From Xenococcaceae cyanobacterium MO_234.B1 (GTDB taxonomy: Bacteria > Cyanobacteriota > Cyanobacteriia > Cyanobacteriales > Xenococcaceae): a stretch of 38,394 nucleotides of DNA. Every line of letters begins with the position of its first letter. Positions within the stretch are counted from its first letter, which is position 1. The stretch covers positions 1 through 38,394 of the forward strand of contig JASJEK010000005.1 of assembly GCA_030064915.1 (NCBI GenBank), read 5' to 3'. The notes under the pieces are model-generated. The model searched no databases and was not told the origin of the DNA. It worked only from the letters and a program-made list of their open reading frames with translations. A program made the position numbers and the translations under genes. This document shows, one piece after another, positions 2,101 through 35,063 of this stretch.

Positions 2101-4173
2101 GTGACAAAATACTTAAATAAGAGCCTAATTCGCTCAATTTTACTAATAGTTGTGTTTCCCATAGTAAGTCTAAGACTTCTCGGATTTTGGCAATGGATGG
2201 AATGGTATAGCTACGACTTATTGTTTTATTTGAGTCCGACTGAGCCAAGAGATGAAAGAATCGTGCTGGTAGTTTGGGACGAGAAAGACCTACAACGAAC
2301 CTCCTCGGCGACCATGAGCGATCTGACTCTCTCCCTTGTCCTCGACAAAATTAAAGAACAGCAACCACGGTTTATTGGCTTAGACATTTACCGAGATATT
2401 CCTGTTCCTTCTAGATCGTTATCGAAGGAACAAAATAACATGGCTTACAATAGGCTTCAAGATATTTTCCGTTCCACTCCCAATCTCATAGGAATTGAAA
2501 AGGTCAGAGAACCCATCATCAATCCTAACCCAATTCTTGTTGAACAAAAACAGACGGCCGCATCGGATCTGATAACTGACCCAGACAATGTCCTTCGCCG
2601 CTCCTTTATCAACACCTCTAGGGATTCTTCTTATATTGGGATGGCATTAGGCTATTTATATTTAGCCCATGAAGGTTGGAACCACGAGAAGGTTGGGGAA
2701 TCTTCACTGGCTTTTTTCAAAGAAGACCAAAAAATTGTCTTACAAGATGTAAAAAATTGGGATGGAGGCTACATTAACAATAAAGTAGGTAGGGATTTTC
2801 TGGTCAACTGGCGTAAAGGTTCTGATCAATTCCTTCAATATTCCGTATCAGAGCTATTGACAGGAAAAGTTCCGACTGATGCCTTTTACGACAAAATTGT
2901 TTTACTCGGGAATGTTTCTTCTTCGACCGCTGATCTTCACTATCTTCCTACCGCTAAATGGGATCGAGTACAACCTTGGACTTATGGAGTCAATGTGGTG
3001 GCCCAGATAGCCAGTTCCATTATTAGCGCAGCACTAGATGAGAGACCTTTACTCAGAGTAGCCCCTTGGGGAATGGGCTATCTTCTACTGGCACTAGGAA
3101 TCTTTTCCATGACTTTGATAATCTTAAAGTTTTCGACCCTGAGAATCAAGCAACTATACTTAATCTCTAGCGTATTTAGCTTGATTCTCACCGGCTTATT
3201 GCTAGTAGCTAGTCTAGTAGCTTTTCAAGCTGTTGGCTGGTGGATTCCCATTGTCCCCGCAGTCTTGGGGGTCTGGTTAACTTTCAATTCCGTCAATTAT
3301 GAAGTACAAATCCAGAGGGAGAAAAATAATCTCTCCCAGTTAGAGTTATTAACTGGTCATCTAGGTCACGAGATAGGCAATTCAACTTACGCTATACAGA
3401 TGAACACAGAAGAGATTGAAGTCAAAACAGAGGATGCCCAAAGCTTGGTTGATTTAATCTGGGATAATTTCTGTTACCAGTTCCCAGAATCAGAACCAAA
3501 GAGTTACGATCTCAGTGATGATTATCTGACCAGAGATAAGTTACATCGATACCTGGATGAACTCAAGAAAAACCTCACTGAAATTCAAGAACAAACTCGA
3601 CAAATTTGGCTCAAGCTCCAAAAAATATCCCGCCAGAGAAAACGCACTAAATATTACATAAAACTTACCAACTTCTGGTCAAAAAGAGCCCCAGAAATAA
3701 CGATGGTTAATGATTTTGTTCGAGAATTGGTTGAAGAAGTTACGATGGATTTACAAGAGGAATATGAAATTAAAATTGAGGTCAAACAAATCTACGACCC
3801 TCACCTCTCAAGGATTAAGTTAGACAGATTCAGTCTAGAAATAATCCTGAAAAATTTATTGGAGAACGCTTTTGATACCTTGTCGGCTAAATCTGACACA
3901 GCTTCAAACTACAATCCAACTGTGATAGTTGAGACAAAAAAAAGCAAGCAGGGGATGGAAATTACTGTAGAAGATAATGGGTCAGGAATTCCCAAAGCTT
4001 TCAGGAATAAAATTTTTAAACTAGGGGTTTCAGGAAAATCTGCGGCTCAAGGACAGGGAATAGGATTATTTTTAGTTCAGGAACTTTTAAATTTACAACA
4101 AGGACAAATAAGATTGGAAAGTCGAGTCGGAGAAGGTAGTAAATTTATAGTTTCTCTCCCAAAAAAACGTTGA
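2101..4173 (+). CDS. CHASE2-domain sensor histidine kinase
   Basis: A 690-residue membrane sensor kinase that would detect an extracytoplasmic signal and phosphorylate a receiver. Order of parts: one membrane helix (about 10-30), an exposed CHASE2 sensory domain (about 40-310, with VVWDEKDLQR and GLDIYRDIPVP), three membrane helices (about 320-400), a helical dimerisation region with phosphoacceptor His423 in GHEIGNS, then the ATPase domain with N-box Asn589 (NLLENAF), G1 Asp625 (EDNGSG) and a GQGIGL G2 box at about 651-656. All key residues are present, so it should be active. It starts at GTG without a strong ribosome-binding site. The next gene downstream, on the same strand, carries a receiver domain and is the obvious partner. 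Confidence 0.93.
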   Translation: MTKYLNKSLIRSILLIVVFPIVSLRLLGFWQWMEWYSYDLLFYLSPTEPRDERIVLVVWDEKDLQRTSSATMSDLTLSLVLDKIKEQQPRFIGLDIYRDIPVPSRSLSKEQNNMAYNRLQDIFRSTPNLIGIEKVREPIINPNPILVEQKQTAASDLITDPDNVLRRSFINTSRDSSYIGMALGYLYLAHEGWNHEKVGESSLAFFKEDQKIVLQDVKNWDGGYINNKVGRDFLVNWRKGSDQFLQYSVSELLTGKVPTDAFYDKIVLLGNVSSSTADLHYLPTAKWDRVQPWTYGVNVVAQIASSIISAALDERPLLRVAPWGMGYLLLALGIFSMTLIILKFSTLRIKQLYLISSVFSLILTGLLLVASLVAFQAVGWWIPIVPAVLGVWLTFNSVNYEVQIQREKNNLSQLELLTGHLGHEIGNSTYAIQMNTEEIEVKTEDAQSLVDLIWDNFCYQFPESEPKSYDLSDDYLTRDKLHRYLDELKKNLTEIQEQTRQIWLKLQKISRQRKRTKYYIKLTNFWSKRAPEITMVNDFVRELVEEVTMDLQEEYEIKIEVKQIYDPHLSRIKLDRFSLEIILKNLLENAFDTLSAKSDTASNYNPTVIVETKKSKQGMEITVEDNGSGIPKAFRNKIFKLGVSGKSAAQGQGIGLFLVQELLNLQQGQIRLESRVGEGSKFIVSLPKKR

Positions 4174-4198
4174 GCTTCTTGTCCTAAAGGTATAATCA

Positions 4199-4473
4199 TA
4201 AGAACTCTTGCATAAGTCCCATAAACCAAGGTCCTGTTGAGGTAAGAGGTAAGAGGTAAGAGGTAAGAGGTATAGAAAGTCTTAAATTAAAGAAAAAAAA
4301 CGGTTATAAAAGCTAAATTAAATAATATAACCCTGTAGGCTTTTTATATCTTGTTTATCCTCTATAAAGACCCCTTATTTAGCCAAAATCTACCCCATAA
4401 ACTCTTACCTCTTACAAACACGAAACCTTTTACCTTTTACCTTTTACCTATAAGCTGACTTCTGCAAGAAGTC
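4199..4473. repeat. STRR-armed fold-back element 2
   Basis: The left arm is four GGTAAGA heptamers (about 4238-4272). The right arm is CTCTTAC plus three CTTTTAC-type heptamers (about 4405-4449), in the complementary sense. The outer ends form an imperfect inverted repeat: AGAACTCTTGCATAAGTC on the left and, read as the complement, AGACTTCTTGCAGAAGTC on the right (15 of 18 matching). The right end itself holds a palindrome, GACTTCT-gca-AGAAGTC (4457-4473). It fills the gap between the kinase and receiver genes and may separate or modulate their transcription. Confidence 0.7.
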
Positions 4474-4511
4474 TATTCTTCCATTGCTGAAAATAGTTTA
4501 AATAAAACACA

Positions 4512-6074
4512 ATGCCAGTTTTAGAAAAGAGGAGTCCGAAATATCTAGTAGTTGACGATCTAATTGCTCCCAATAAGACCTATCAAGAGAGATTTAGGGC
4601 TCAAATAGGAGTCCCTAGGGAAAATGTCGTTTTTGCTTCTAATTATGAAGAAGCTACCCAACAAATTAAATCTATTTCCAATATTGTTTTATGTTTTGTC
4701 GATTGTATAATTCCCAGGACTTACAAAAAAGAGGGTCTTTTGGAAAAAATCGAAGAATATGAGCGGCAAAAAGATAGTTTGAGTATAAATAACCTGAAGT
4801 TAGCAGAATGGGGAATTAAGATAATTTCCGAGAATCAACAGTTAGAAATATGTGCTTTTTCCGCCCACTTGGATGCCAAAGATTTATCAAGATTAGCCAA
4901 TCAATATAGTAACGTAGTTAAAACTGCTGAAAAACCATTAAGAGCCAAAGATTTAGAATCCCTCAGACCCAAATATATAGAGCCATTTTTCCCTCAACCT
5001 ATAACGGCTAATAAGGTTTCTGGTCATTTAGCCCCCCGACCGAAAAAATCATTTGACTATTCTTCTCTAGATGAAAATTTATCGTTTTTTATCCAGGAAA
5101 AAACTCAAGAAATTAAAAGATTAGTGAGAAGAACTTCAGAAGATATTATTGAGATTGGCACTTATTTAATTGAGGTGAAAAGTAAATTAGGTCATGGCAA
5201 TTTTTATAATTGGCTTGATGCAGAATTTAGCTGGAGCTATACTTCAGCATCACGTTTTATGAGCGTGGCCAATAGATTTGAATCTTCCACAGTGCAAGAT
5301 TTAGAGATTTTGCCTAGTGCGTTATATGAGCTGGCATCTGCCTCTGTTCCTGAAGCGGCGGTAACTGAAGCACTCGATAGAGCCAAACAAGGGGAAACAA
5401 TTGACAAAAAAACCGCCAAAGGGATTAAAGCTAAGTATAAATCTCCTCAAAAACAAATCAGTAAAACTACGCAATCGTTGACTGTTGAAAAAGTTCCAGT
5501 AGATGAGGCCGATTTGAGAGGAGCCAATCAATTGGTAAAAGAGCCTGAAAGTAGGAAAAGAAAAAATAGTAATAGCTCTCAAACGTCTTTGACCCCGAAA
5601 AACATAATTCAACCTCAGCAAGAAATTTTAAAAGTTTATCCAGGGTCAAAGGCAGTTAGGAATAGTTGGTGGCAGTTAGGAGAACATCATCAACTATTTT
5701 GTGGGTCACCAAATTCTGATAAATTTTTGGAGAGACTCCCCTCGAAAATTGCTTTAGGGATTAATTTTCCCCCGAAAAATAATAAGTCTTTGATTCCTTC
5801 GATTAAAGCCAAATCAGAGCTGAGTTTTGGTTCTGAGTACGATGATATTAGTGTAGATTGGTTAGTAAAAACATTGTCAGAATGTATTCGTGAAACCACA
5901 GAAGCCAATGAAACCGTAGTCTTTTCTTACTTATTCGACCTAAAACTCCTAGAAAAAGCCGTAGAATTGTATTGCTGTTGTATTGTAGCCGAGCCTGATT
6001 TATCCAAGTGCGATCTCATTCTCCAAAAATGGAGGGAGAAAGAGCCCAATTCAGTAATACGTATTAAGTATTAG
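4512..6074 (+). CDS. Receiver-DUF3102-degenerate DNA methyltransferase protein
   Basis: A 520-residue three-part protein. Residues about 8-165 form a response-regulator receiver domain: acidic pair Asp15-Asp16, likely phosphoacceptor Asp64 in FVDC, and a Lys-Pro after TAE. Residues about 190-290 match DUF3102 (IIEIGTYLIEVKSKLGHGNF, then a helix-turn-helix-like SYTSASRF). After a Lys/Ser/Gln-rich linker, residues about 383-520 follow the layout of ParB-linked beta-class N4/N6 adenine/cytosine methylases: WWQLGEHHQLFCG at the front and DLSKCDLILQKW at the end. The catalytic DPPY position reads NFPP, and the glycine-rich cofactor motif is replaced by VVFSYLFDL, so methylation is unlikely. Inferred role: a signal-responsive DNA-binding regulator or partition factor controlled by the CHASE2 kinase upstream. 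Confidence 0.8.
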   Translation: MPVLEKRSPKYLVVDDLIAPNKTYQERFRAQIGVPRENVVFASNYEEATQQIKSISNIVLCFVDCIIPRTYKKEGLLEKIEEYERQKDSLSINNLKLAEWGIKIISENQQLEICAFSAHLDAKDLSRLANQYSNVVKTAEKPLRAKDLESLRPKYIEPFFPQPITANKVSGHLAPRPKKSFDYSSLDENLSFFIQEKTQEIKRLVRRTSEDIIEIGTYLIEVKSKLGHGNFYNWLDAEFSWSYTSASRFMSVANRFESSTVQDLEILPSALYELASASVPEAAVTEALDRAKQGETIDKKTAKGIKAKYKSPQKQISKTTQSLTVEKVPVDEADLRGANQLVKEPESRKRKNSNSSQTSLTPKNIIQPQQEILKVYPGSKAVRNSWWQLGEHHQLFCGSPNSDKFLERLPSKIALGINFPPKNNKSLIPSIKAKSELSFGSEYDDISVDWLVKTLSECIRETTEANETVVFSYLFDLKLLEKAVELYCCCIVAEPDLSKCDLILQKWREKEPNSVIRIKY

Positions 6075-6140: not shown

Positions 6141-6578
6141 CTAAATGATTTTTTTGGGCTCTTTAATTCTCAACCAAGAACAAACAGGATTAGTGCGATA
6201 ACAAACAACGCCATCAGCAACCTCATTGACTCCCCAAAACATCCCTAAACAGATAGCCAAGAGAAAAGCGAGGGCCCAAAACCAGCCCAAACGAGAATAA
6301 TTACGAAAGGTCTGTTGAAATTGCCCGAGATTTTCCCGTTTTTTTTGCTCAAAATCTTCCTGACTCTTGAGGAGTTGTAAAACTCGTTCTTCCTGTTGGA
6401 GAATCGGGTAGAGGCGAACTGAAATTAATTGATCTAAGAACTGGGTAAAATGTTGTTCGACTCTGGAGGGAGCAATACTGATTGTTGTTCTGTCCAGGTT
6501 TCGACCAGAGCCTGAAGGCTGATTTCGTTTCCCAGGTTCTGCTCTATCTTCCGATCGATTAAGGTTTGTAACTCGCCA
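6141..6578 (-). CDS. Membrane-anchor segment in the -1 frame of the upstream gene
   Basis: An open frame that overlaps the end of the 6434-7375 gene and ends at TAG 6143-6141. It contains no ATG, GTG or TTG before its conserved-looking part, so it lacks an ordinary start. From the slippery site it encodes about 128 residues: a polar, Ser/Gly-containing linker, a long charged helix (RVEQHFTQFLDQLISVRLY, then LQQEERVLQLLKSQEDFEQ), one strong membrane helix (GWFWALAFLLAICLGMFWGV) and a short tail with two cysteines ending PKKII. Composition and the helix-plus-anchor layout look like real protein. It is best explained as the C-terminal half of the upstream protein, reached by -1 frameshifting, giving a membrane-bound product of about 411 residues. 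Confidence 0.7.
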   Translation of the reverse strand, partial: WRVTNLNRSEDRAEPGKRNQPSGSGRNLDRTTISIAPSRVEQHFTQFLDQLISVRLYPILQQEERVLQLLKSQEDFEQKKRENLGQFQQTFRNYSRLGWFWALAFLLAICLGMFWGVNEVADGVVCYRTNPVCSWLRIKEPKKII

Positions 6579-7375
6579 CTACCGAAGGCTTGAGTAAGTC
6601 CAGTATAGGTAAGGTGGTCAAAAGTTTTTTCCACCTGGGTACGTTGATGGACTATCTTGTTGGCAATAATTTCGAGAATTTTTTGCTGCTGAAGCTCAGA
6701 TAAATGGGCAATACTGTCAAATACCTGTTTTATGTAGTTATCGCCAGCATGATGAGCCACGCCAAAATGTTGGGCTATTTCCGCCTTCGATTTTCCCATC
6801 TCAAGTAAATCGCAGCAGGAAACGAAAATCTCAGCCTGCTTCTGGGTATAAAAATCCTGCTCTTTTAAGCCACATAAAGGTAGGATTTGCAGCAGTTGAG
6901 AGATACTAAGTTTAAGAGATGCCAATTGTTTGAGCTCGAGCAGGCTAATGGAATCGGAGGCTGTGGAATTAGAAGCCGTTGAGGGATTGTCTGATTCTGA
7001 TTCAATCAAGTGGTGACTTTCTAAGAAAGAATCAGCTTCAGTAAAAGTATATTCTTCTTTCGGCTCTAATTCGACCAGAGCTAAAATCTGGGATACTTCA
7101 TCTTCTGATAAAGTTCTTCCCACCAATTGGTGAAGTTCGGGTGCAGTCAAATTGCCTTGATTAACGGATAATTCAGCTTTTTGTTGACTGGAACGAAGCA
7201 AGTAAGCACACTGGGCATCACTTTTTCCTGACTCAAGATAGCGAAAACACTCTCGGACGATTTCGCTCTCATGTTCAAAATATTCCTCCTTACCCTCAAA
7301 ACCACAGAGAGAGAGAATCTTATCGGCTGATTCGGTCGACTTACCTTCAAATAATTGTTCGTAGCGCTCACTCAT
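6434..7375 (-). CDS. Repeat-domain protein of the actin operon (zero-frame product)
   Basis: The zero-frame product is 313 residues with no family I recognise. It contains an internal repeat. The first copy (about 16-65) has ILSLCGFEGKEEYF, then ECFRYLESGKSDAQ; the last (about 155-205) has ILPLCGLKEQDFY, then CCDLLEMGKSKAEIAQHFGV. A shorter middle copy (QILALVELEPKEEY) lies around residue 95. The segment GKSKAEIAQHFGV resembles a helix-turn-helix, so DNA binding is possible. ATG start with AAGGA about 10 bases upstream. It is the last gene of the minus-strand operon headed by the ParM-like ATPase. Its natural full-length form probably continues by frameshift into the membrane anchor at 6141. 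Confidence 0.75.
   Translation of the reverse strand: MSERYEQLFEGKSTESADKILSLCGFEGKEEYFEHESEIVRECFRYLESGKSDAQCAYLLRSSQQKAELSVNQGNLTAPELHQLVGRTLSEDEVSQILALVELEPKEEYTFTEADSFLESHHLIESESDNPSTASNSTASDSISLLELKQLASLKLSISQLLQILPLCGLKEQDFYTQKQAEIFVSCCDLLEMGKSKAEIAQHFGVAHHAGDNYIKQVFDSIAHLSELQQQKILEIIANKIVHQRTQVEKTFDHLTYTGLTQAFGSGELQTLIDRKIEQNLGNEISLQALVETWTEQQSVLLPPESNNILPSS
6509..6533 (-). promoter_or_regulatory. Candidate -1 ribosomal frameshift signal
   Basis: On the minus strand the heptamer GGGAAAC (6533-6527) sits in the exact phase G-GGA-AAC relative to the upstream gene. This is a canonical X-XXY-YYZ slippery sequence. Six bases later a small perfect hairpin follows, AGCCT-TC-AGGCT (6520-6509). 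Slipping back one base continues into the anchor-encoding frame, which stays open to 6143. Confidence 0.6.
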
Positions 7376-7402: not shown

Positions 7403-8245
7403 TTAATTTTGTTGTGCTTTGATTTGGGTACAAATTCGCTGTAATTCGTGTAGAGAAGACCAAGGCAAAACAAGTATTTCCCCTGAAATCTTCACTGAAA
7501 CCCATTTTCCACTTTCTCGACCAAAATTGAATTGCTCCATAAATTGAGCAGCTTCTTCCCAAGAATGGAGTTTCAACCTATCTTTAATGTGAATTAAAAC
7601 CTCTGGTCTGAAAGTACCTAATTTCCGAATCTCACTGGGTTCATAGGTTTGGTCAAGGGAGAGATGCTTAATTTTTTCCTTTTCCAGTTCCAGTCGAGCC
7701 AATTCAATTTTGAGCTTAAGTTCTCTCTCGGTTTCGGTTTCTGGAGCCGGGAATTCCAGAAAATCCGTGTATTCCTGTTCGAGAAAACCAATAGGTTTGA
7801 GCCCTTGAGAAGATAAATCTTCTTTGAGAGATTGATTTTTGGCTTTGGTAGTTCGATAAGCTTCAAAAGCTTCGTCAGCTAGTTCGTAAAGAGTATGTTT
7901 CAGTAGGGCTAAAACTAATCTCTGTGCTTTAGAGTTTCCTGATGCTGCCCACTTGTGCCAGTAAAGACAAGCTACATCAATCGGAATCGGATTAATGGGT
8001 TTGTTCGCTCCTTCAATCGAGAGTTTTTCTCCTAAATTCCAACATTCAAAACCCTTGTCAAATAGGCTTTTGAAGTACTTTGAGCGAGAAAAATACAACA
8101 TAGAATCTCTACTTTTATCAATGACAGAAGCTACCTGGGTTTGACTCAAACAATATTCCCCATTGGGCAACATCGCTACTTCCAGAGGAATATCCCCCAA
8201 ATAAATAGTTCTACGTTGAGCCTTATAAGTTGATGGTTCTTCCAT
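7403..8245 (-). CDS. Plasmid protein with DNA-binding-like N-terminal domain
   Basis: 280 residues, not assigned to a named family with confidence. The N-terminal 60 residues (IPLEVAMLPNGEYCLSQTQV, then ASVIDKSRDSMLYFSRSK) resemble a short strand-plus-helix domain seen in phage antirepressor or KilA-N-like cyanobacterial proteins. The middle is helical, and residues about 160-205 form a charged coiled-coil-like helix (ETERELKLKIELARLELEKE). The C-terminus is mixed. It lies 27 bases after the 132-residue gene and 27 bases before the repeat-domain gene, so it is co-transcribed with the actin operon. A DNA-binding adaptor linking the actin filament to plasmid DNA is a reasonable but unproven guess. 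Confidence 0.7.
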   Translation of the reverse strand: MEEPSTYKAQRRTIYLGDIPLEVAMLPNGEYCLSQTQVASVIDKSRDSMLYFSRSKYFKSLFDKGFECWNLGEKLSIEGANKPINPIPIDVACLYWHKWAASGNSKAQRLVLALLKHTLYELADEAFEAYRTTKAKNQSLKEDLSSQGLKPIGFLEQEYTDFLEFPAPETETERELKLKIELARLELEKEKIKHLSLDQTYEPSEIRKLGTFRPEVLIHIKDRLKLHSWEEAAQFMEQFNFGRESGKWVSVKISGEILVLPWSSLHELQRICTQIKAQQN

Positions 8246-8271: not shown

Positions 8272-8670
8272 TCAAAAAACAGTGGGATAGTCCCCTTCTT
8301 CTTCTTCAGTTAGAGGGGTTAGGGAGGGTTCAGATTCGGGTAGGATATAGTTCCTTTCTGCTTCCTGGGGAGTAGGAAGCTCCGAATTCAAGTTAATACC
8401 TAATCTCTGCTGAAGATAGCGAAAATGCCCTTGCCAGGCTTGGTTGGCATCAATTAAACTTTGACGGATTGCTTCTGGGGTGGCTCCCTGATACTCATAC
8501 ACCAAAGGGGCGAAGTGAGTAATTAAGGAATCGAGAATCAGTCGATGTCGGACATAGGGAGTAGCATCTTCATCATTGAGATATTTAGAAATCCAGGCTT
8601 CTAAACTATCCTCTTGTACTTTTAATCTGGCGCGAATATCTATCAGCAACTTGGAAGACTTTGATTTCAT
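8272..8670 (-). CDS. Small acidic helical protein, possible ParR-like adaptor
   Basis: 132 residues, predicted mostly helical with an acidic Pro/Glu-rich C-terminal tail (LTPLTEEEEGDYPTVF). The start ATG overlaps the stop of the ParM-like gene in an ATGA junction, which implies translational coupling. No family is recognised. In type II partition operons the gene immediately after parM encodes the DNA-binding adaptor ParR, of about this size. Position and length therefore suggest that role, but no ribbon-helix-helix motif is obvious. Confidence 0.75.
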   Translation of the reverse strand: MKSKSSKLLIDIRARLKVQEDSLEAWISKYLNDEDATPYVRHRLILDSLITHFAPLVYEYQGATPEAIRQSLIDANQAWQGHFRYLQQRLGINLNSELPTPQEAERNYILPESEPSLTPLTEEEEGDYPTVF

Positions 8671-9827
8671 GACTTTCTAGTTAAAATGGGACTTCTAGAG
8701 GGAAAAACTTGTTGCTGCATATAGCGAAACAAGCCATAAGCATCAGCTAAACGAACGCAAATGCTATCTTTTTGGGGGTCTAAATTAAAAACCATCTGTA
8801 CATCTTTTTCCAGGTCGGCAGACCAGAAAACTTTTGTGGAGTGGTAATTTCGCCCTAAAAAGTCTTTGAGTTCTCGTTGGAAATAATAGGCAGTGCCTCC
8901 ACCAATCACAATCTCGTGACTGTCTTGAGGCAAAGCCATTAATAACCATTTCAAGACAATGCGGGAATAGTCACCACGAACTCTTTTGATGACTTCAACA
9001 ATGTCGAGGACTTCTTCGACTTTCCGTTTGGGATTCTGACTTTTGGCGAGATGTTTAATGTTTTTAGTCGTAATTTTCGCCCCAGCAGAATGAACCGCAT
9101 GGAGTAATTCTTTCGACTCTAAACCAGAGGTCAGCTTTTGGATCTGCTCCAACATCTCTAAAAATCCGAGTTTGGCAGTTTGCCCATCAATCACACATCG
9201 GTCAGAAGTAATGACTGACAAATCCCGATAGCCCCACATCAAAGAGACAATTTTGGATTGATTGAAGCTCGACCCGAGTTTTTTGCCACGAGTTAACATG
9301 AGTCCTCCACCTTCAGGAAAACACTTGAAAAACTCCAAATTAACCGAAAATTCTTGACCTCGAAACCAAAAACGGGATAAAGCGGTCTCTAGTTCTTGCT
9401 GAATCTTGTTACGGTCTTGCCATTCACTATAAGGCAGGGCAATAGACAGTGCTAAGTCTAAATTAGAGGCTAAACCTTCTTTAGTGGCAATCACACCCAC
9501 AGTAGCCAGTACCTTAGTAATAGCTCCCTCATATTTCAAAGCTTTCTTATCGACTACTGCGCCAAATCGTTGGGCTAAAAACCCAGTGACATAGTAGTCC
9601 TCGTCATACTTAATCCAGGCTTCGGATTCAGGTAAAGGAGTCGTAATGCGATCTCCCTCATAGGCTGAGATAGATTCACGGGAAACTGTTGTAGTCACCG
9701 AATCCATCAATAGCAGCTTAAAGGAAGATAAATTCTCTCCCTCTGATACTCGATAGCAGATTTTACTATCTGTTGTACCAGGGTCTAATGTCAGTAGCAA
9801 CATTTGTGTCGCTTCACCTTTGTTCAC
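8667..9827 (-). CDS. parM: ParM/Alp-like actin-family ATPase
   Basis: A 386-residue actin-fold ATPase expected to form filaments that push or position plasmid copies. Visible motifs: phosphate-1 loop LDPGTTDSK near the start, phosphate-2 region MWGYRDLSVI around residue 205, and adenosine loop IVIGGGTAYYF around 315. Length fits plasmid ParM/Alp proteins. The longest frame starts at GTG 9827, but ATG 9803 (MLLLTLDPG) is better: it has AAAGGTGA just upstream and starts where ParM proteins usually do. It is first in the minus-strand operon and divergent from the relaxase. The shared 700-bp upstream region holds TGACCC repeats that could be its centromere or operator. Confidence 0.85.
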   Translation of the reverse strand: MNKGEATQMLLLTLDPGTTDSKICYRVSEGENLSSFKLLLMDSVTTTVSRESISAYEGDRITTPLPESEAWIKYDEDYYVTGFLAQRFGAVVDKKALKYEGAITKVLATVGVIATKEGLASNLDLALSIALPYSEWQDRNKIQQELETALSRFWFRGQEFSVNLEFFKCFPEGGGLMLTRGKKLGSSFNQSKIVSLMWGYRDLSVITSDRCVIDGQTAKLGFLEMLEQIQKLTSGLESKELLHAVHSAGAKITTKNIKHLAKSQNPKRKVEEVLDIVEVIKRVRGDYSRIVLKWLLMALPQDSHEIVIGGGTAYYFQRELKDFLGRNYHSTKVFWSADLEKDVQMVFNLDPQKDSICVRLADAYGLFRYMQQQVFPSRSPILTRKS

Positions 9828-9999: not shown

Positions 10000-10041
10000 C
10001 GTATTTTTTGGCTAAATATTATGCTCCTTAACAAAAATATT

Positions 10042-10195
10042 ATGACCCGTAAAAAAATAGTTATGGGTCACTGGTTCAAGCTTATTAAGAATCTTTTTAA
10101 ATAGTTACTAAAAACAGCAAATTAGGGGCAAAACCCTAGAATCATTAATAGCAAAATGACCCACGTTGGGACATTGTTGGGAAAATATGACCCAC
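10042..10195. promoter_or_regulatory. TGACCC cluster between actin operon and relaxase
   Basis: TGACCC appears at 10043-10048, 10157-10162 and 10188-10193, the last two as TGACCCAC after AAAAT-type sequence, with an inverted GGGTCA at 10065-10070. Two direct GTTGGGA copies (10165-10171 and 10176-10182) lie between the last two. The cluster is in the divergent intergenic region (9828-10537), a natural place for a parC-like centromere, an operator or oriT. No other gene was seen in that 710-bp gap. Confidence 0.55.
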
Positions 10196-10537: not shown

Positions 10538-13500
10538 ATGCTAACCACTAAAAATATTTCCGCCTTGCAGGGGAAATTATATTATGTGCAAGAAAATAAT
10601 CAATCGTTCCAACAAGCTCAAATTAATTCGAGTTGGTCAGGCTCTGGTGCGAAGAAACTGGGTTTGGAAGGAATAGTCAAAAAAGATGATTTTAGTAATC
10701 TGTTATCTGGTTGTTTGCCCAATGGAGAGCGCTTCAGAACCAAAAAACCAACTCGTGATGAATATAAAGAGCGTGGGGGGATAGACTGTACTTTCTCTGC
10801 TCCCAAAAGTGTCAGCATTTTAGCTTTGGTAGAAGGCAGAAAGGATTTAGAAAAAGCACAAATTACAGCAGTAGAGAAAACTTTACAGGTCTTAGAATCT
10901 CGTTATGCCACTACCAGGGTCAGAATAGGTAATGAGCGTCAGATAATCAATACAGAAAATTTAGTAATTGCTAAATTTCAGCACGACATCAGCCGAGAGT
11001 TAGACCCCCAATTACATACTCATTGCGTCTTGCTCAACATGACCCAGTTAAAGAACGGCAAATGGTATAGCTTGAGAAATCGAGATATTCACGCCCATAA
11101 GAAGCTGTTGGGGATGATCTATCAGAATGAATTAGCCCTCGCCGTTGGTCAGCTAGGGTACGAGATAGAGCAAAAAGGAAATGGACAGTTTGAAATCAAA
11201 GGGTTTAGCTCCGAACAATTACAATCTTTCTCCAAGCGCAGACAACAAATCCAAACCGCTATCCCTTCTGAAGCGGTTTGGTTGGAGAGGGAAAAAGCTT
11301 GGTACAAGACCCGTATAGCCAAAGGAAAACCGATACCCAGAGAGTTACTCCAAGACTGTTGGCGTGAAGAACTAGGGGATGTATCCTATCCCCAACCTAA
11401 TGGTACGTTCTTAAACAGATCGGTGAAGATTGCTCCGGAGCGGAGGAGCAGAGGAGCAGGGGAGAAAATGGGACTCACCTCTGCACCAGAGCACCCCTGC
11501 ACCCCTGCTTTCACAACCAAGCTGGATGTTAACCAAGCCGTCTCTGAAGCGATCGCCCATCTGGGGGAGAGAAAGGTAGCCTTTAAGCCGGAAGAGATTG
11601 AACAGTTTGTTTTGTCTGAGGTGGGTCAGTATCAACCCCAGGAAGTAGAGGAGGCGATCTCCAAGAGTAATGAACTGATCCATTTAGATGGAAAGGTAAC
11701 GACTCAAACTGCCTTGCTGAGAGAAATCAACACCATTCGGCTGGTGAAACAAGGTCAAGAGCGGGTTCAAGCTCTGACTACTCCCTCAGCAGTTGAAGAG
11801 TCTCTATTAGGGTCAAGTTTAACTGAGGGTCAGAAAAAAGCAGTTTCTCTGGCTGCTACGACTCAAGATCGGTTCATTGCATGGTCTGGTCAAGCAGGAG
11901 TAGGTAAAACCTATGCCCTCAATGAATTTAAACAGATTGCTGAAGGAGAAGGCTATACAGTGAAAGGCTTTGCTCCTTCAGCCAAAGCAGCTAAGGTATT
12001 GTCAGAAGAGATAAGCATTGAGACTACCACCGTTGCTAGAAAACTGGTTTCTCAATCTCTGAAGGAAGAAAGCCAACATCAGCAGATTTGGATTGTTGAT
12101 GAAGCGGGATTACTGGGAGCTAAGGATGCTTATGAACTGCTCGAGAAAGCCAAGTCGGAAAATGCCAGAGTCTTATTGGTGGGAGATACCAGACAGTTAA
12201 GCTCAGTGGCAGCAGGTAATCCGTTTAAATCCTTACAGCAAGCTGGAATCGCTACTGCTTACCTCAATCAATCCTTACAGCAGAAGACTAAAGATTTAAA
12301 ACAAGCTGTTGATTTACTATCTGATGGCAAGATTGCAGAAGGGATCGAGATTCTAGATAGCAATAAACGTATTGCAGAGATTCAGGATAGGGATGAAAGG
12401 GTTAACCGTATTGCCCTCGACTACTTAAAATTAAGTCCCGATGAGCGGAATAGAACTCTCATCATCGCAGGAACTCATCAAGAGCGAGGAGCTATATTAG
12501 ACAAGATTCGCGAGGGCCTAAAGCAAGAAGGTACTTTAGGAGAAGAAGTTACCATCAAAAGGCTTAAATCGAAAAATCTCACCGATATTCAGAAGAAGTA
12601 CCCTCACTATTACCTTAAAGGTAATGTTGTGATTCCTCTGGCTAACTATAAAAGATTAGGACTCCAGAAAAACCAACAGTACCAAGTCAAAGCCATAGAA
12701 AGAGACAGTCTGATCTTACTAGATTATGCTGGAATTGAAAGAAGAGTCGCCCCTGCTTCCTTTAAATACAAGGAAGTGTATGAAGCAGTTGAGACTAAAA
12801 TAGCAGTAGGCGATCGCTTACGATGGGGTAAGAATGATAAGCAACTTAATCGGGTTAAGGGGTCGGAGTTTGTCGTTACCCAGATTGCTGAAGGGAGCGC
12901 TACTATCTGTACTGAGACAGGTAAACGGGAACAAATAGACCTAAAAATACCCCAACACTTAGATCATGGCCTAGTCTCTACAACCTATAGTAGTCAGGGG
13001 GCAACAGCTAATCGAGTTTTAGTCTCTGTTACATCTGACCTAACACTAAGCCAAGAAAGCTTTTATGTAGCAGCTTCTCGTGCTAAATATAATCTCCAGC
13101 TTTATGTGGAAAATCGGGACAAGCTGGTGGAAAAAGCCCAGTCTAGTCGCGCTCAAAGTAATCCCCTGGAGCTAATAGGAGAGCATAGACTGCATTTAGT
13201 CGTTCGGACCAGATATTCCACACCTCAACAACAACCAAACCAAACATCACAACAAGATCATGAACGAAATCAACCCACCCAATCAAACTCTCAAAGAGAT
13301 TCTGGTCGAAGCCCTGAGTCCAGTCAACCAAAGGCTAGAAAATTTAGAGTTGAGCCACCAGAACTTAAAGCTTGGGCTAGAGGACTTTCTGACGGAATTA
13401 ACCAATTTACTGAACAACAAGAAATCGAGCAACTTAAAGGAAGTATTGAACGAATTAACCGAAACCTTAAAAACAGTCAGTTCCCAACTGGAAGAACAGA

Positions 13501-14596
13501 AGCAGTTAGAAACTCAATTGAACTTCTCGATAGAGCAATTACAAAACACAATCGAAAATCAAAATTAGAAGCTATCATACTTCATGTAGAGCAATCTACC
13601 CTCGAATCTGACATTGAACTCATTAATGCCATTTCCTCACTCCAACATTCCTTAGAAACCCAGTCATTCAACACCAGGAATCAACTGCAAAATCTTCAAG
13701 ACTCTATCAATGAACTGAGTCAAAGGCAGGCAGAAAGTAGAATACAGCCTTTCTCTCCACCCACTCCAGATGATTCTAAATGGTCAGAAGTCAAAGATTA
13801 TTTGGTTAATAAAAGAGGGCTCCCAGAATCATTGGTATCCTCTTTACATGAGCTGGGCTCTATTTATGCTGACTCCAAACAAAATGCTGTTTTTATCAGG
13901 AGGAATCTGGAAGGTGAAATTACTGGAGCTTCTTTAAGAGGAACTCACGAAGATAGTAAATTTAAAGGATTAGCTCCAGGTATACACAGAGCTCAAGGAT
14001 GGTTTACTCTCCAGAAAGGACAAGGAGAACTAGAGCGCATTGTCCTAACCTCTTCTCCCATTGATGCTCTTTCTGCTGCTGCTATCTCCCAGAAACAAGA
14101 AACCACCTTGTTCATCTCCACCGATGGGGAGCTCCCCCATCAGTTCTTACAGCAACAGCTATCTCAAGGTAAGCAAATCCTTGTGGCCTATGATAATGAT
14201 GAAGCAGGAAACCAGATGGCACGTGCCATCTTAGACAAGTTACCAGGGTCCGAGAGGATTACCCCCAAAGTCGGAAAAGACTGGAATGAACAGCTTCGGC
14301 TCCAAGAAGCTGAACAAATAGCTAAGAAAGTCCAACTTTTACTAGAAAAATTCGGTCAGACTTCTGCTGTTGATGGGTCAAAATCCTTTGAGGGCAAGTG
14401 TTTGAGGTTTTTGGCGACCAACAATTCCCTATCAATTTACTCGAAATTGAGGCAGCAGGTTATTTTTGAAGTCAATAAAGATAAGAACCGTATTTTCTAT
14501 CAGCCCAATCGAGCAGAAAGAAAAATACTCTCAGAACTCAAGCAAAATCCGATATTGAACCAGTCTCCGAGAAGAAAACTCGGTCGAGGAATGTAA
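10538..14596 (+). CDS. MobF-type relaxase-helicase with C-terminal TOPRIM domain
   Basis: A 1352-residue conjugative relaxase that would nick at oriT, stay covalently attached to the 5' end and unwind the strand. The N-terminal TrwC-like domain has the catalytic tyrosine pair Tyr15-Tyr16 and the metal-binding histidines His149, His160 and His162 (HDISRELDPQLHTH). A superfamily 1 helicase follows: Walker A GQAGVGKT 451-458, Walker B Asp521-Glu522 (WIVDEAG), GDTRQLS, TTYSSQG and VAASRAK. A helical linker (about 880-1080) leads to a DUF3991-like plus TOPRIM region (about 1082-1280), with Asp1219, Asp1221 and Gly1224 in YDNDEAG. A basic tail ends the protein. The TOPRIM suggests an added primase- or nuclease-like function on the transferred strand. 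The relaxase and helicase domains are certain; the TOPRIM function is inferred. Confidence 0.95.
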   Translation: MLTTKNISALQGKLYYVQENNQSFQQAQINSSWSGSGAKKLGLEGIVKKDDFSNLLSGCLPNGERFRTKKPTRDEYKERGGIDCTFSAPKSVSILALVEGRKDLEKAQITAVEKTLQVLESRYATTRVRIGNERQIINTENLVIAKFQHDISRELDPQLHTHCVLLNMTQLKNGKWYSLRNRDIHAHKKLLGMIYQNELALAVGQLGYEIEQKGNGQFEIKGFSSEQLQSFSKRRQQIQTAIPSEAVWLEREKAWYKTRIAKGKPIPRELLQDCWREELGDVSYPQPNGTFLNRSVKIAPERRSRGAGEKMGLTSAPEHPCTPAFTTKLDVNQAVSEAIAHLGERKVAFKPEEIEQFVLSEVGQYQPQEVEEAISKSNELIHLDGKVTTQTALLREINTIRLVKQGQERVQALTTPSAVEESLLGSSLTEGQKKAVSLAATTQDRFIAWSGQAGVGKTYALNEFKQIAEGEGYTVKGFAPSAKAAKVLSEEISIETTTVARKLVSQSLKEESQHQQIWIVDEAGLLGAKDAYELLEKAKSENARVLLVGDTRQLSSVAAGNPFKSLQQAGIATAYLNQSLQQKTKDLKQAVDLLSDGKIAEGIEILDSNKRIAEIQDRDERVNRIALDYLKLSPDERNRTLIIAGTHQERGAILDKIREGLKQEGTLGEEVTIKRLKSKNLTDIQKKYPHYYLKGNVVIPLANYKRLGLQKNQQYQVKAIERDSLILLDYAGIERRVAPASFKYKEVYEAVETKIAVGDRLRWGKNDKQLNRVKGSEFVVTQIAEGSATICTETGKREQIDLKIPQHLDHGLVSTTYSSQGATANRVLVSVTSDLTLSQESFYVAASRAKYNLQLYVENRDKLVEKAQSSRAQSNPLELIGEHRLHLVVRTRYSTPQQQPNQTSQQDHERNQPTQSNSQRDSGRSPESSQPKARKFRVEPPELKAWARGLSDGINQFTEQQEIEQLKGSIERINRNLKNSQFPTGRTEAVRNSIELLDRAITKHNRKSKLEAIILHVEQSTLESDIELINAISSLQHSLETQSFNTRNQLQNLQDSINELSQRQAESRIQPFSPPTPDDSKWSEVKDYLVNKRGLPESLVSSLHELGSIYADSKQNAVFIRRNLEGEITGASLRGTHEDSKFKGLAPGIHRAQGWFTLQKGQGELERIVLTSSPIDALSAAAISQKQETTLFISTDGELPHQFLQQQLSQGKQILVAYDNDEAGNQMARAILDKLPGSERITPKVGKDWNEQLRLQEAEQIAKKVQLLLEKFGQTSAVDGSKSFEGKCLRFLATNNSLSIYSKLRQQVIFEVNKDKNRIFYQPNRAERKILSELKQNPILNQSPRRKLGRGM
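11430..11515. repeat. Repeat element inserted in frame in the relaxase gene
   Basis: A purine-rich run of GGAGCAGAGGAGCAGGGG type is followed by its pyrimidine-rich complement (CCTCTGC and two CCCCTGC copies), forming a fold-back. It encodes residues about 298-326 (PERRSRGAGEKMGLTSAPEH), unlike any relaxase or helicase sequence. It sits exactly between the two enzymatic domains and preserves the frame. Confidence 0.6.
13260..13568 (+). CDS. Candidate overlapping gene inside the relaxase linker (+1 frame)
   Basis: A 102-residue ORF in the +1 frame relative to the relaxase, covering its helical linker. The product is strongly protein-like: Leu/Glu/Gln-rich amphipathic helices (LKEILVEALSPVNQRLENLE, EVLNELTETLKTVSSQLEEQ) typical of a coiled coil. 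Overlapping accessory genes inside relaxase genes are known from mobA/mobB plasmids. No good ribosome-binding site precedes the ATG. The relaxase frame is also plausible protein here, so this would be true dual coding, or an accident of shifting a helical Gln/Glu-rich sequence. Confidence 0.3.
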   Translation: MNEINPPNQTLKEILVEALSPVNQRLENLELSHQNLKLGLEDFLTELTNLLNNKKSSNLKEVLNELTETLKTVSSQLEEQKQLETQLNFSIEQLQNTIENQN

Positions 14597-34433: not shown

Positions 34434-35063
34434 ATGAGTAATTCCCAAGTTCTTCGCGATATTAGCAGACATTTGCGCCAGTTATTGCTGGATGGTTTGA
34501 GCGGTGACGAGTCTGTTAGTGGTGCATCGCTTTCGGAAGGCAACATTTCCCTCGATTCGCCAGCACGGCTGGCTGAAAGCGGAAGCTCTAACTCAGGAAC
34601 TTCTAGTCCATTACTTTCCTTATATCTCTATCAGGTCACACCTAATGCTCATATTAATAATCGGTCACCAATTTCTTCAAATAACGGTGAACAGCATTAC
34701 CCCCCTCTTAGTTTAAATCTTTCCTATCTATTAACTCCTCTCGACAATTCACCCGAAACTTGTCTTCTGGTATTAGGTCGTGCGATGCAGGTTCTGGCAG
34801 CACACCCGATTATTCGTAATCGTTTTTTAGACTCCCTGTTGCGCCCGAACCCTCCTGAAGTGCGTTTAACTCTCAATCCGCTCAACTTGGAGGAGATGAC
34901 GCGGATTTGGAATGCCTTTAATCAACCCTATCGTCTATCTGTTTGCTATCAGGTGCAAGTTGTCTCTATCGATAGTATCCGATTACCTGCAGAAGAGCCG
35001 CCTGTGACAGAGCGGCTGCTAGATGTGCACCAAATAGTAGCAAGCAATGGAGGTGAGCTATGA
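34434..35063 (+). CDS. DUF4255 protein, eCIS sheath-cap family
   Basis: 209 residues matching the DUF4255/Pvc16 family of contractile injection systems, whose members cap or terminate the sheath-tube assembly. Features: N-terminal helix SQVLRDISRHLRQLLLDG, a Ser/Gly-rich loop, SPLLSLYLYQVTPNAHINNR, and YPPLSLNLSYLLTPLDNSPE followed by LLVLGRAMQVLAAHP and VCYQVQVVSID. These are the typical landmarks of the family. AGAGG lies about 12 bases upstream. It overlaps the next gene by four bases (ATGA). It opens a new gene block unrelated to the plasmid backbone. Confidence 0.88.
   Translation: MSNSQVLRDISRHLRQLLLDGLSGDESVSGASLSEGNISLDSPARLAESGSSNSGTSSPLLSLYLYQVTPNAHINNRSPISSNNGEQHYPPLSLNLSYLLTPLDNSPETCLLVLGRAMQVLAAHPIIRNRFLDSLLRPNPPEVRLTLNPLNLEEMTRIWNAFNQPYRLSVCYQVQVVSIDSIRLPAEEPPVTERLLDVHQIVASNGGEL

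Follow-up and report, generated by a model that had tools for sequence, protein, structure and literature searches.

The head gene and its overlapping -1 frame

The stretch of DNA analysed here (the window) comprises 38,394 nucleotides of a contig of Xenococcaceae cyanobacterium MO_234.B1. On its reverse strand lies a gene for a protein of 313 amino acids, the head gene (6434..7375), which encodes a soluble form in the zero frame, from an ATG at 7375 to a TAG stop at 6436-6434, and for which homologs were found. A second open reading frame on the same strand, the tail ORF (6141..6578), overlaps it by 142 nt in the -1 frame. This frame is open for 145 codons, from 6578 to a TAG stop at 6143-6141, and is conserved according to a tail profile. 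At this locus the -1 frame contains no ATG, GTG or TTG codon from the point where it opens up to the transmembrane segment. The coiled-coil/transmembrane tail, whose sequence includes ...KKRENLGQFQQTFRNYSRLGWFWALAFLLAICLGMFWGVNEVADGVVCYRTNPVCSWLRIKEPKKII, consists of a charged helical stretch, one predicted transmembrane helix (6228..6284, reverse strand; 19-residue hydropathy mean 2.03) and, 3′ of the helix, an invariant Cys pair (C126 and C133 of the tail ORF; 6180..6203, reverse strand) belonging to the motif G.N.P..i.C.....CY.LR. The overlap contains a single in-phase heptamer of the X_XXY_YYZ type, G_GGA_AAC (6527..6533, reverse strand), where the zero frame reads CTG GGA AAC. After a -1 shift at this site tail translation would be expected from about 6527, and the computed frameshift product has 283 + 128 = 411 amino acids. 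The coordinates, the start-less -1 frame and the phase of the heptamer, as put forward in an original prediction made from the sequence alone, all held.

Searches of Pfam, NCBIfam, PHROGs and PDB assigned no family to either head or tail. A few head members gave weak helix-turn-helix (HTH)-type matches below the cut-offs, which hint at DNA binding by the head as no more than a possibility. A PDB match to a 'CAP repeat' protein (8vd6) was discounted, as it came down to a single short motif matched weakly in five copies, and a single-sequence AlphaFold2 model of the head was unusable (mean pLDDT 41.7).

Operon and plasmid context

The head gene belongs to a reverse-strand operon ordered actin, 132-aa ParR-position protein, 280-aa protein and head/tail. 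The actin gene encodes an actin-like ATPase of the ParM/CorM type (386 aa; 8667..9827), identified by sequence matches: the protein is 47% identical to the RefSeq ParM/StbA of pTCL26-01_C and matches the solved CorM (PDB 9rmi; E 3e-10), and its match to Pfam ALP_N is weak and under the cut-off. Its score against the NCBIfam model of FcmB (NF052678; E 9e-14) was 51 bits, below the cut-off of 300. The gene for the ParR-position protein (8272..8670) overlaps that of the actin; its product shares 31% identity over 88 aa with that of the same-position gene of pTCL26-01_C (L002) and has no Pfam or NCBIfam match above cut-off. Between this ParR-like gene and the head lies the gene of the 280-aa protein (7403..8245), whose function is unknown and relatives of which also occur in G003. 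Divergent from the operon, the forward strand encodes a MobF (TrwC) relaxase (10538..14596; Pfam PF08751, E 2e-79), followed by type IV secretion genes, which indicates a conjugative plasmid context; the operon is likewise divergent to a relaxase gene on the Nostoc plasmids L002 and L003. A tandem pair of 21-nt AT-rich repeats (10014-10055) between the actin and relaxase genes is possibly part of a centromere site. Beyond this pair, the region upstream of the actin gene has only a small number of short AT-rich repeats and shows no clear parC array of direct repeats. The original prediction had referred to an actin-type plasmid machine; given the adjoining actin, a partition-type operon is likely though not proven.

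Two further observations concern the surroundings. At 2101-6074 lie genes for a CHASE2 histidine kinase and, after it, a DUF3102-domain protein of 520 aa, the latter converging on the head/tail gene and ending 66 bases past the tail stop. The conjugative plasmid contig also encodes a Pvc16_N domain protein (34434-35063; E 5e-42).

The -1 overlap is conserved among cyanobacteria

Two homologs in another genome of the same genus, 51-54% identical, display the same overlap in the same -1 register, and their tails are alike to the same degree (51-54%). The same head/tail layout was retrieved by protein search from complete Nostocales plasmids and one Gloeothece plasmid, and in this early plasmid and genus set a transmembrane tail overlapped the head in the -1 frame at 24/24 loci examined. 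The locus set was then widened by genome searches with a head profile and a tail profile. The tail profile yielded 65 non-redundant tail loci, 59 of which overlap a head in the -1 frame. These 59 loci span at least six families and two orders; they share descent and are not independent trials. The tails are homologous and carry a transmembrane helix, usually together with a C-x(3-8)-C pair (40/42). Two tail loci are in the +1 frame (L203 and L210, the latter a 47-aa tail remnant), and four, truncated or degenerate, have no head. No in-frame fusion of head and tail was present among the tail-profile loci, the longest tail-bearing open frame being 225 aa, barring one of 393 aa (L055, G439:C3) that runs on downstream as if joined to the next gene.

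Neither head nor tail was found in IMG/VR viral contigs. The window tail gave no tblastn match to plasmids, probably owing to excess divergence, and a nucleotide search of plasmids with the window gene was also negative, as was a search of genome contigs with a chromosomal head; with a Nostoc head, the genome-contig search returned one 99% copy in Nostoc paludosum. Chromosomal operons (L087-L089) retain the actin, the ParR-like protein and head/tail, and no relaxase is among the ORFs listed near them. At one pair of loci (L069 and L070; G560:C131 and C138) the head is duplicated, the first copy lacking a transmembrane tail and the second, shorter one having a frameshift site and a tail. In the window's own genome, another tail (L194, G000:C8) is cut off at a contig end.

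Another explanation would be an error in sequencing or assembly, or a pseudogene made by a frameshift mutation of recent date; in its favour, the source is a draft genome of 459 contigs. However, the same architecture occurs in the two 51-54% homologs of another genome and on complete plasmids, the -1 overlap recurs in dozens of distant loci, and both frames are conserved. A single-base assembly error, which the original prediction had named as a possible refutation, is thereby excluded, and an error or pseudogene in general all but excluded.

Alternatively, the tail could be a separate overlapping gene whose translation relies on re-initiation or on coupling, using a start codon of the -1 frame that is weak or non-canonical. 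L203 (748-2167, G630) has precisely such a layout, with a head of 289 aa and a tail of 187 aa encoded by two ATG genes that overlap by 14 nt in an actin operon. Moreover, RefSeq annotates some tails as genes of their own, and the overlap of L005 contains an in-frame ATG. Several observations speak against this explanation. No start position is conserved: elsewhere ATG, GTG and TTG codons are scattered, and the window, L004, L007, L014 and L018 have none of them in the tail frame before the transmembrane segment. Nor is there, L203 excepted, a conserved start near the head stop of the kind looked for in a translationally coupled pair. Annotated starts vary among close relatives or are missing; public annotation begins the tail at differing internal codons in L002, L007, L008, L010, L011 and L014, and omits it from L009, L012 and L015. 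The register, finally, is -1 in 59 loci versus +1 in 2. Independent tail homologs without the heptamer would, according to the original prediction, have refuted a frameshift; L203 is the only intact locus with the tail as a separate gene, as opposed to 59 -1 overlaps, all with a heptamer. We thus regard a separate tail gene as very unlikely and retain the -1 frameshift as the preferred reading. The split in L203 suggests that head and tail modules cooperate even when encoded separately. Because present annotation splits off the tail, starts it at variable positions or misses it, the membrane protein remains hidden, and such tail proteins are absent from databases or truncated there.

In-phase slippery heptamers within the overlap

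All 59 loci with a -1 overlap contain an in-phase shift-prone heptamer inside it, mostly near the homologous place. The heptamer is canonical (X_XXY_YYZ: G_GGA_AAN, A_AAA_AAG or, in L031, T_TTT_TTG) in 50/59 loci and of the G_GGG type in 9/59. Differing in-phase heptamers occupy corresponding places close to the 5′ boundary of the overlap: A_AAA_AAG (ATG GGA AAA AAG) in eight Nostocales plasmids, GTG GGA AAG in five loci, GAG GGA AAG in four and G_GGA_AAA on the Gloeothece plasmid. In the GAG GGA AAG group, which consists of four Nostoc-type loci, a TGA closes the -1 frame immediately 5′ of the heptamer, and in L052, L053 and L068 this frame also opens exactly at the heptamer; no earlier shift is therefore possible at these loci. 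Among 42 head-profile overlaps, 39 carried a canonical in-phase heptamer, compared with 11.2 expected from synonymous codon shuffling, and heptamer density upstream in the same heads was 0.14 per 40 codons. Ribosomes are known to shift very readily at G_GGA_AAG in E. coli, and a haloarchaeal virus makes use of G_GGA_AAC (PMC5009743). The original expectation of a heptamer conserved at the same point held for the class of heptamer but failed for the exact GGGAAAC, as the two closest relatives of the window have G_GGG_AAG, which is not X_XXY_YYZ, at the homologous position.

Two sequences outside the X_XXY_YYZ pattern, G_GGG_AAG and G_GGG_GAG, are found repeatedly where the heptamer is expected, in L005, L006, L187 (= L195), L191 (= L196), L192 and L193 and further in L197, L184 (= L198), L062 and L183 (= L199). 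A slip of the P-site GGG is possible at these sites. L192 (G000:C377) and L193 (G000:C111) lie in the window's own genome and have shorter, divergent heads whose -1 overlap is at G_GGG_AAG; upstream of L192 are an actin gene and a ParR-position gene.

The -1 frame could also be reached by programmed transcriptional slippage in place of ribosomal frameshifting, and A6 runs are indeed present in some relatives (GGAAAAAAG). However, GGGAAAC in the window and GGGAAAN in most loci are too short for known slippage runs, given as >7 A or 8 T in the GeneTack paper (PMC3711429), and a codon constraint that keeps phase would be a mark of ribosomal slippage, not of the transcriptional kind. This explanation is hence very unlikely, and ribosomal frameshifting at the heptamer is preferred.

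The original prediction further included a hairpin as stimulator, formed by the 12-nt palindrome AGCCTTCAGGCT (6509..6520, reverse strand). This part failed: the palindrome exists, but its RNA fold is weak and unremarkable against shuffles, with 4 bp closing a UUCA loop at -4.3 kcal/mol (z -1.3 by itself and z 0.3 in its 35-nt context), and L005/L006 do not share it. No conserved stimulator was seen at the window's site. Five loci (G439/G560/G591 group) share an almost invariant 9-bp stem, GGGCTGYTG/CAGCAGCCC, with a variable loop, 5-6 nt 3′ of the heptamer, and SD-like motifs precede the heptamer in 14/42 loci versus 4.9 expected. A stimulator, if any, differs between lineages, and none is universal.

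Dual-coding constraint begins at the heptamer in five groups

Position 2 of a zero-frame codon corresponds to the wobble position in the -1 frame. Past the heptamer, nucleotide differences move from zero-frame position 3 towards position 2 in five groups that are well sampled. The position-2 share rose from before to after the heptamer in three plasmid groups (0.19 to 0.41, 0.21 to 0.47 and 0.16 to 0.38) and in two further groups (0.21 to 0.38 and 0.19 to 0.36). Sequences within groups are related, and the substitution counts are not independent trials. Sequence comparison thus shows that dual-coding constraint starts right after the heptamer in these five groups. The change was small in three other sets, namely the trio to which the window's locus belongs (0.18 to 0.21), the G_GGG group (0.25 to 0.28) and the divergent G568/G584 set (0.23 to 0.29), and the sites in these consequently rest on layout and tail conservation. 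Coupled translation of a separate tail gene would leave unexplained both the constraint on the -1 frame from the heptamer onward and the enrichment of heptamers, which adds to the case for the -1 frameshift.

Proposed mechanism and possible roles

In the mechanism that we propose, ribosomes translating the head gene would slip at G_GGA_AAC (6533-6527), a fraction of them re-pairing one base back, and a 128-residue tail read in the -1 frame would then replace the last 30 residues of the head. This tail would supply a helical segment rich in charges, followed by a single transmembrane helix and then a short C-terminal stretch bearing the conserved Cys pair. Two proteins with 283 residues in common, a soluble form of 313 aa and a membrane-anchored isoform of 411 aa, would in this way arise from one gene of a plasmid actin operon. 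The conserved -1 overlap, the heptamer class, the dual coding in five groups and the homology of the transmembrane tails are established by sequence comparison. A -1 programmed ribosomal frameshift making the 411-aa isoform is very likely, an inference from sequence comparison in the absence of protein or ribosome-profiling data. The originally predicted pair of products, a soluble 313-aa form and a membrane form of about 411 residues, is thus supported by comparative evidence, while the anchoring function is inferred and the predicted 'set ratio' of the two forms also stays an inference. We further infer that the head is cytoplasmic and the tail anchored in the membrane; a simple charge test around the transmembrane helix was not decisive on the orientation of head and tail.

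From the operon context, the long form may tether an actin/ParR-like segregation complex to the membrane, and the ratio of the two forms may matter. This inferred role is as well supported as not when set against other roles taken together. A frameshift that is real could also yield a long form that couples to the conjugation machinery or regulates envelope or shape; this alternative rivals the function only. It is favoured by the divergent MobF relaxase in the window, L002 and L003, and by the related FcmB/FcmC system, which regulates cell shape (PMC12645912). Against it, the ORFs listed near the chromosomal copies L087-L089 include no relaxase, and the order actin, ParR-like gene and head matches partition operons. 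On balance we lean slightly away from such other roles and keep membrane tethering as the working interpretation. A bolder reading, which could prove right or wrong with similar chance, is a widespread and hitherto unannotated recoding family on cyanobacterial plasmids and some chromosomes in which frameshifting, in part at G_GGG_AAG, would set the ratio of soluble to anchored forms of an actin-operon adaptor and filaments would be membrane-tethered. Among the evidence against the proposed mechanism are the true fcmB/fcmC loci: as these lack a head/tail gene, an actin of such kind can work without one.

Relation to known systems

The related actins include FcmB, of the FcmB/FcmC system of filamentous cyanobacteria, and CorM (9rmi). 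FcmB forms membrane-associated filaments and originated in a plasmid partition system; membrane localisation is credited to FcmC, and neither a frameshift nor a transmembrane segment is mentioned (PMC12645912). Unlike the operon described here, bona fide fcmB loci consist of fcmB-fcmC only, and the window locus does not meet the FcmB criterion, with 51 bits versus 300 and a different gene content. The idea of the frameshift gene being FcmC, or belonging to the chromosomal fcm locus, was considered and rejected after inspection of about 30 fcmB loci. Type II ParMRC partition operons resemble the present one in the actin, annotated as ParM/StbA in relatives, in the small ParR-position protein that follows it and in their occurrence on conjugative plasmids. 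ParMRC operons are not known to contain a gene of the head/tail type; this gene is extra here, and neither the identity of ParR nor a parC centromere is established.

Known bacterial -1 frameshifting (dnaX, IS3-family orfAB, copA) likewise involves a -1 shift at an in-phase X_XXY_YYZ heptamer in an ORF overlap, and several of the heptamers found here are identical to known ones (A_AAA_AAG, G_GGA_AAG). The present case differs in that the shift appends a conserved transmembrane tail to a protein of a plasmid actin operon, that there is no universal stimulator and that 9/59 loci use G_GGG_(A/G)AG. Few bacterial -1 frameshift genes outside insertion sequences are well supported, and to our knowledge no shift adds a membrane anchor to a protein of a cytoskeletal operon. 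In the open-access literature searched, we found no report describing the head/tail family or any frameshifting in actin operons of cyanobacteria; subscription papers and supplements such as the GeneTack cluster lists (PMC3711429) were outside the scope. The type of event, a -1 frameshift at a heptamer, is known, but a conserved recoding family with a membrane-anchored isoform is apparently undescribed. Varied heptamers recurring near the same place in at least six families and two orders, G_GGG_AAG among them, would provide a rich natural data set on the evolution of slippery sites. The work on FcmB/FcmC (PMC12645912) raises the question of how plasmid actin systems in this group come to the membrane, and the proposed anchor gives an answer that can be tested.

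In other actin operons of cyanobacteria (L153-L155), a protein resembling MinD/ParA (GEKGGVGKS) is encoded together with a separate membrane protein that has GFCT(I/L)W at its end; the latter may be an analogue of the tail that is specified by a gene of the usual kind.
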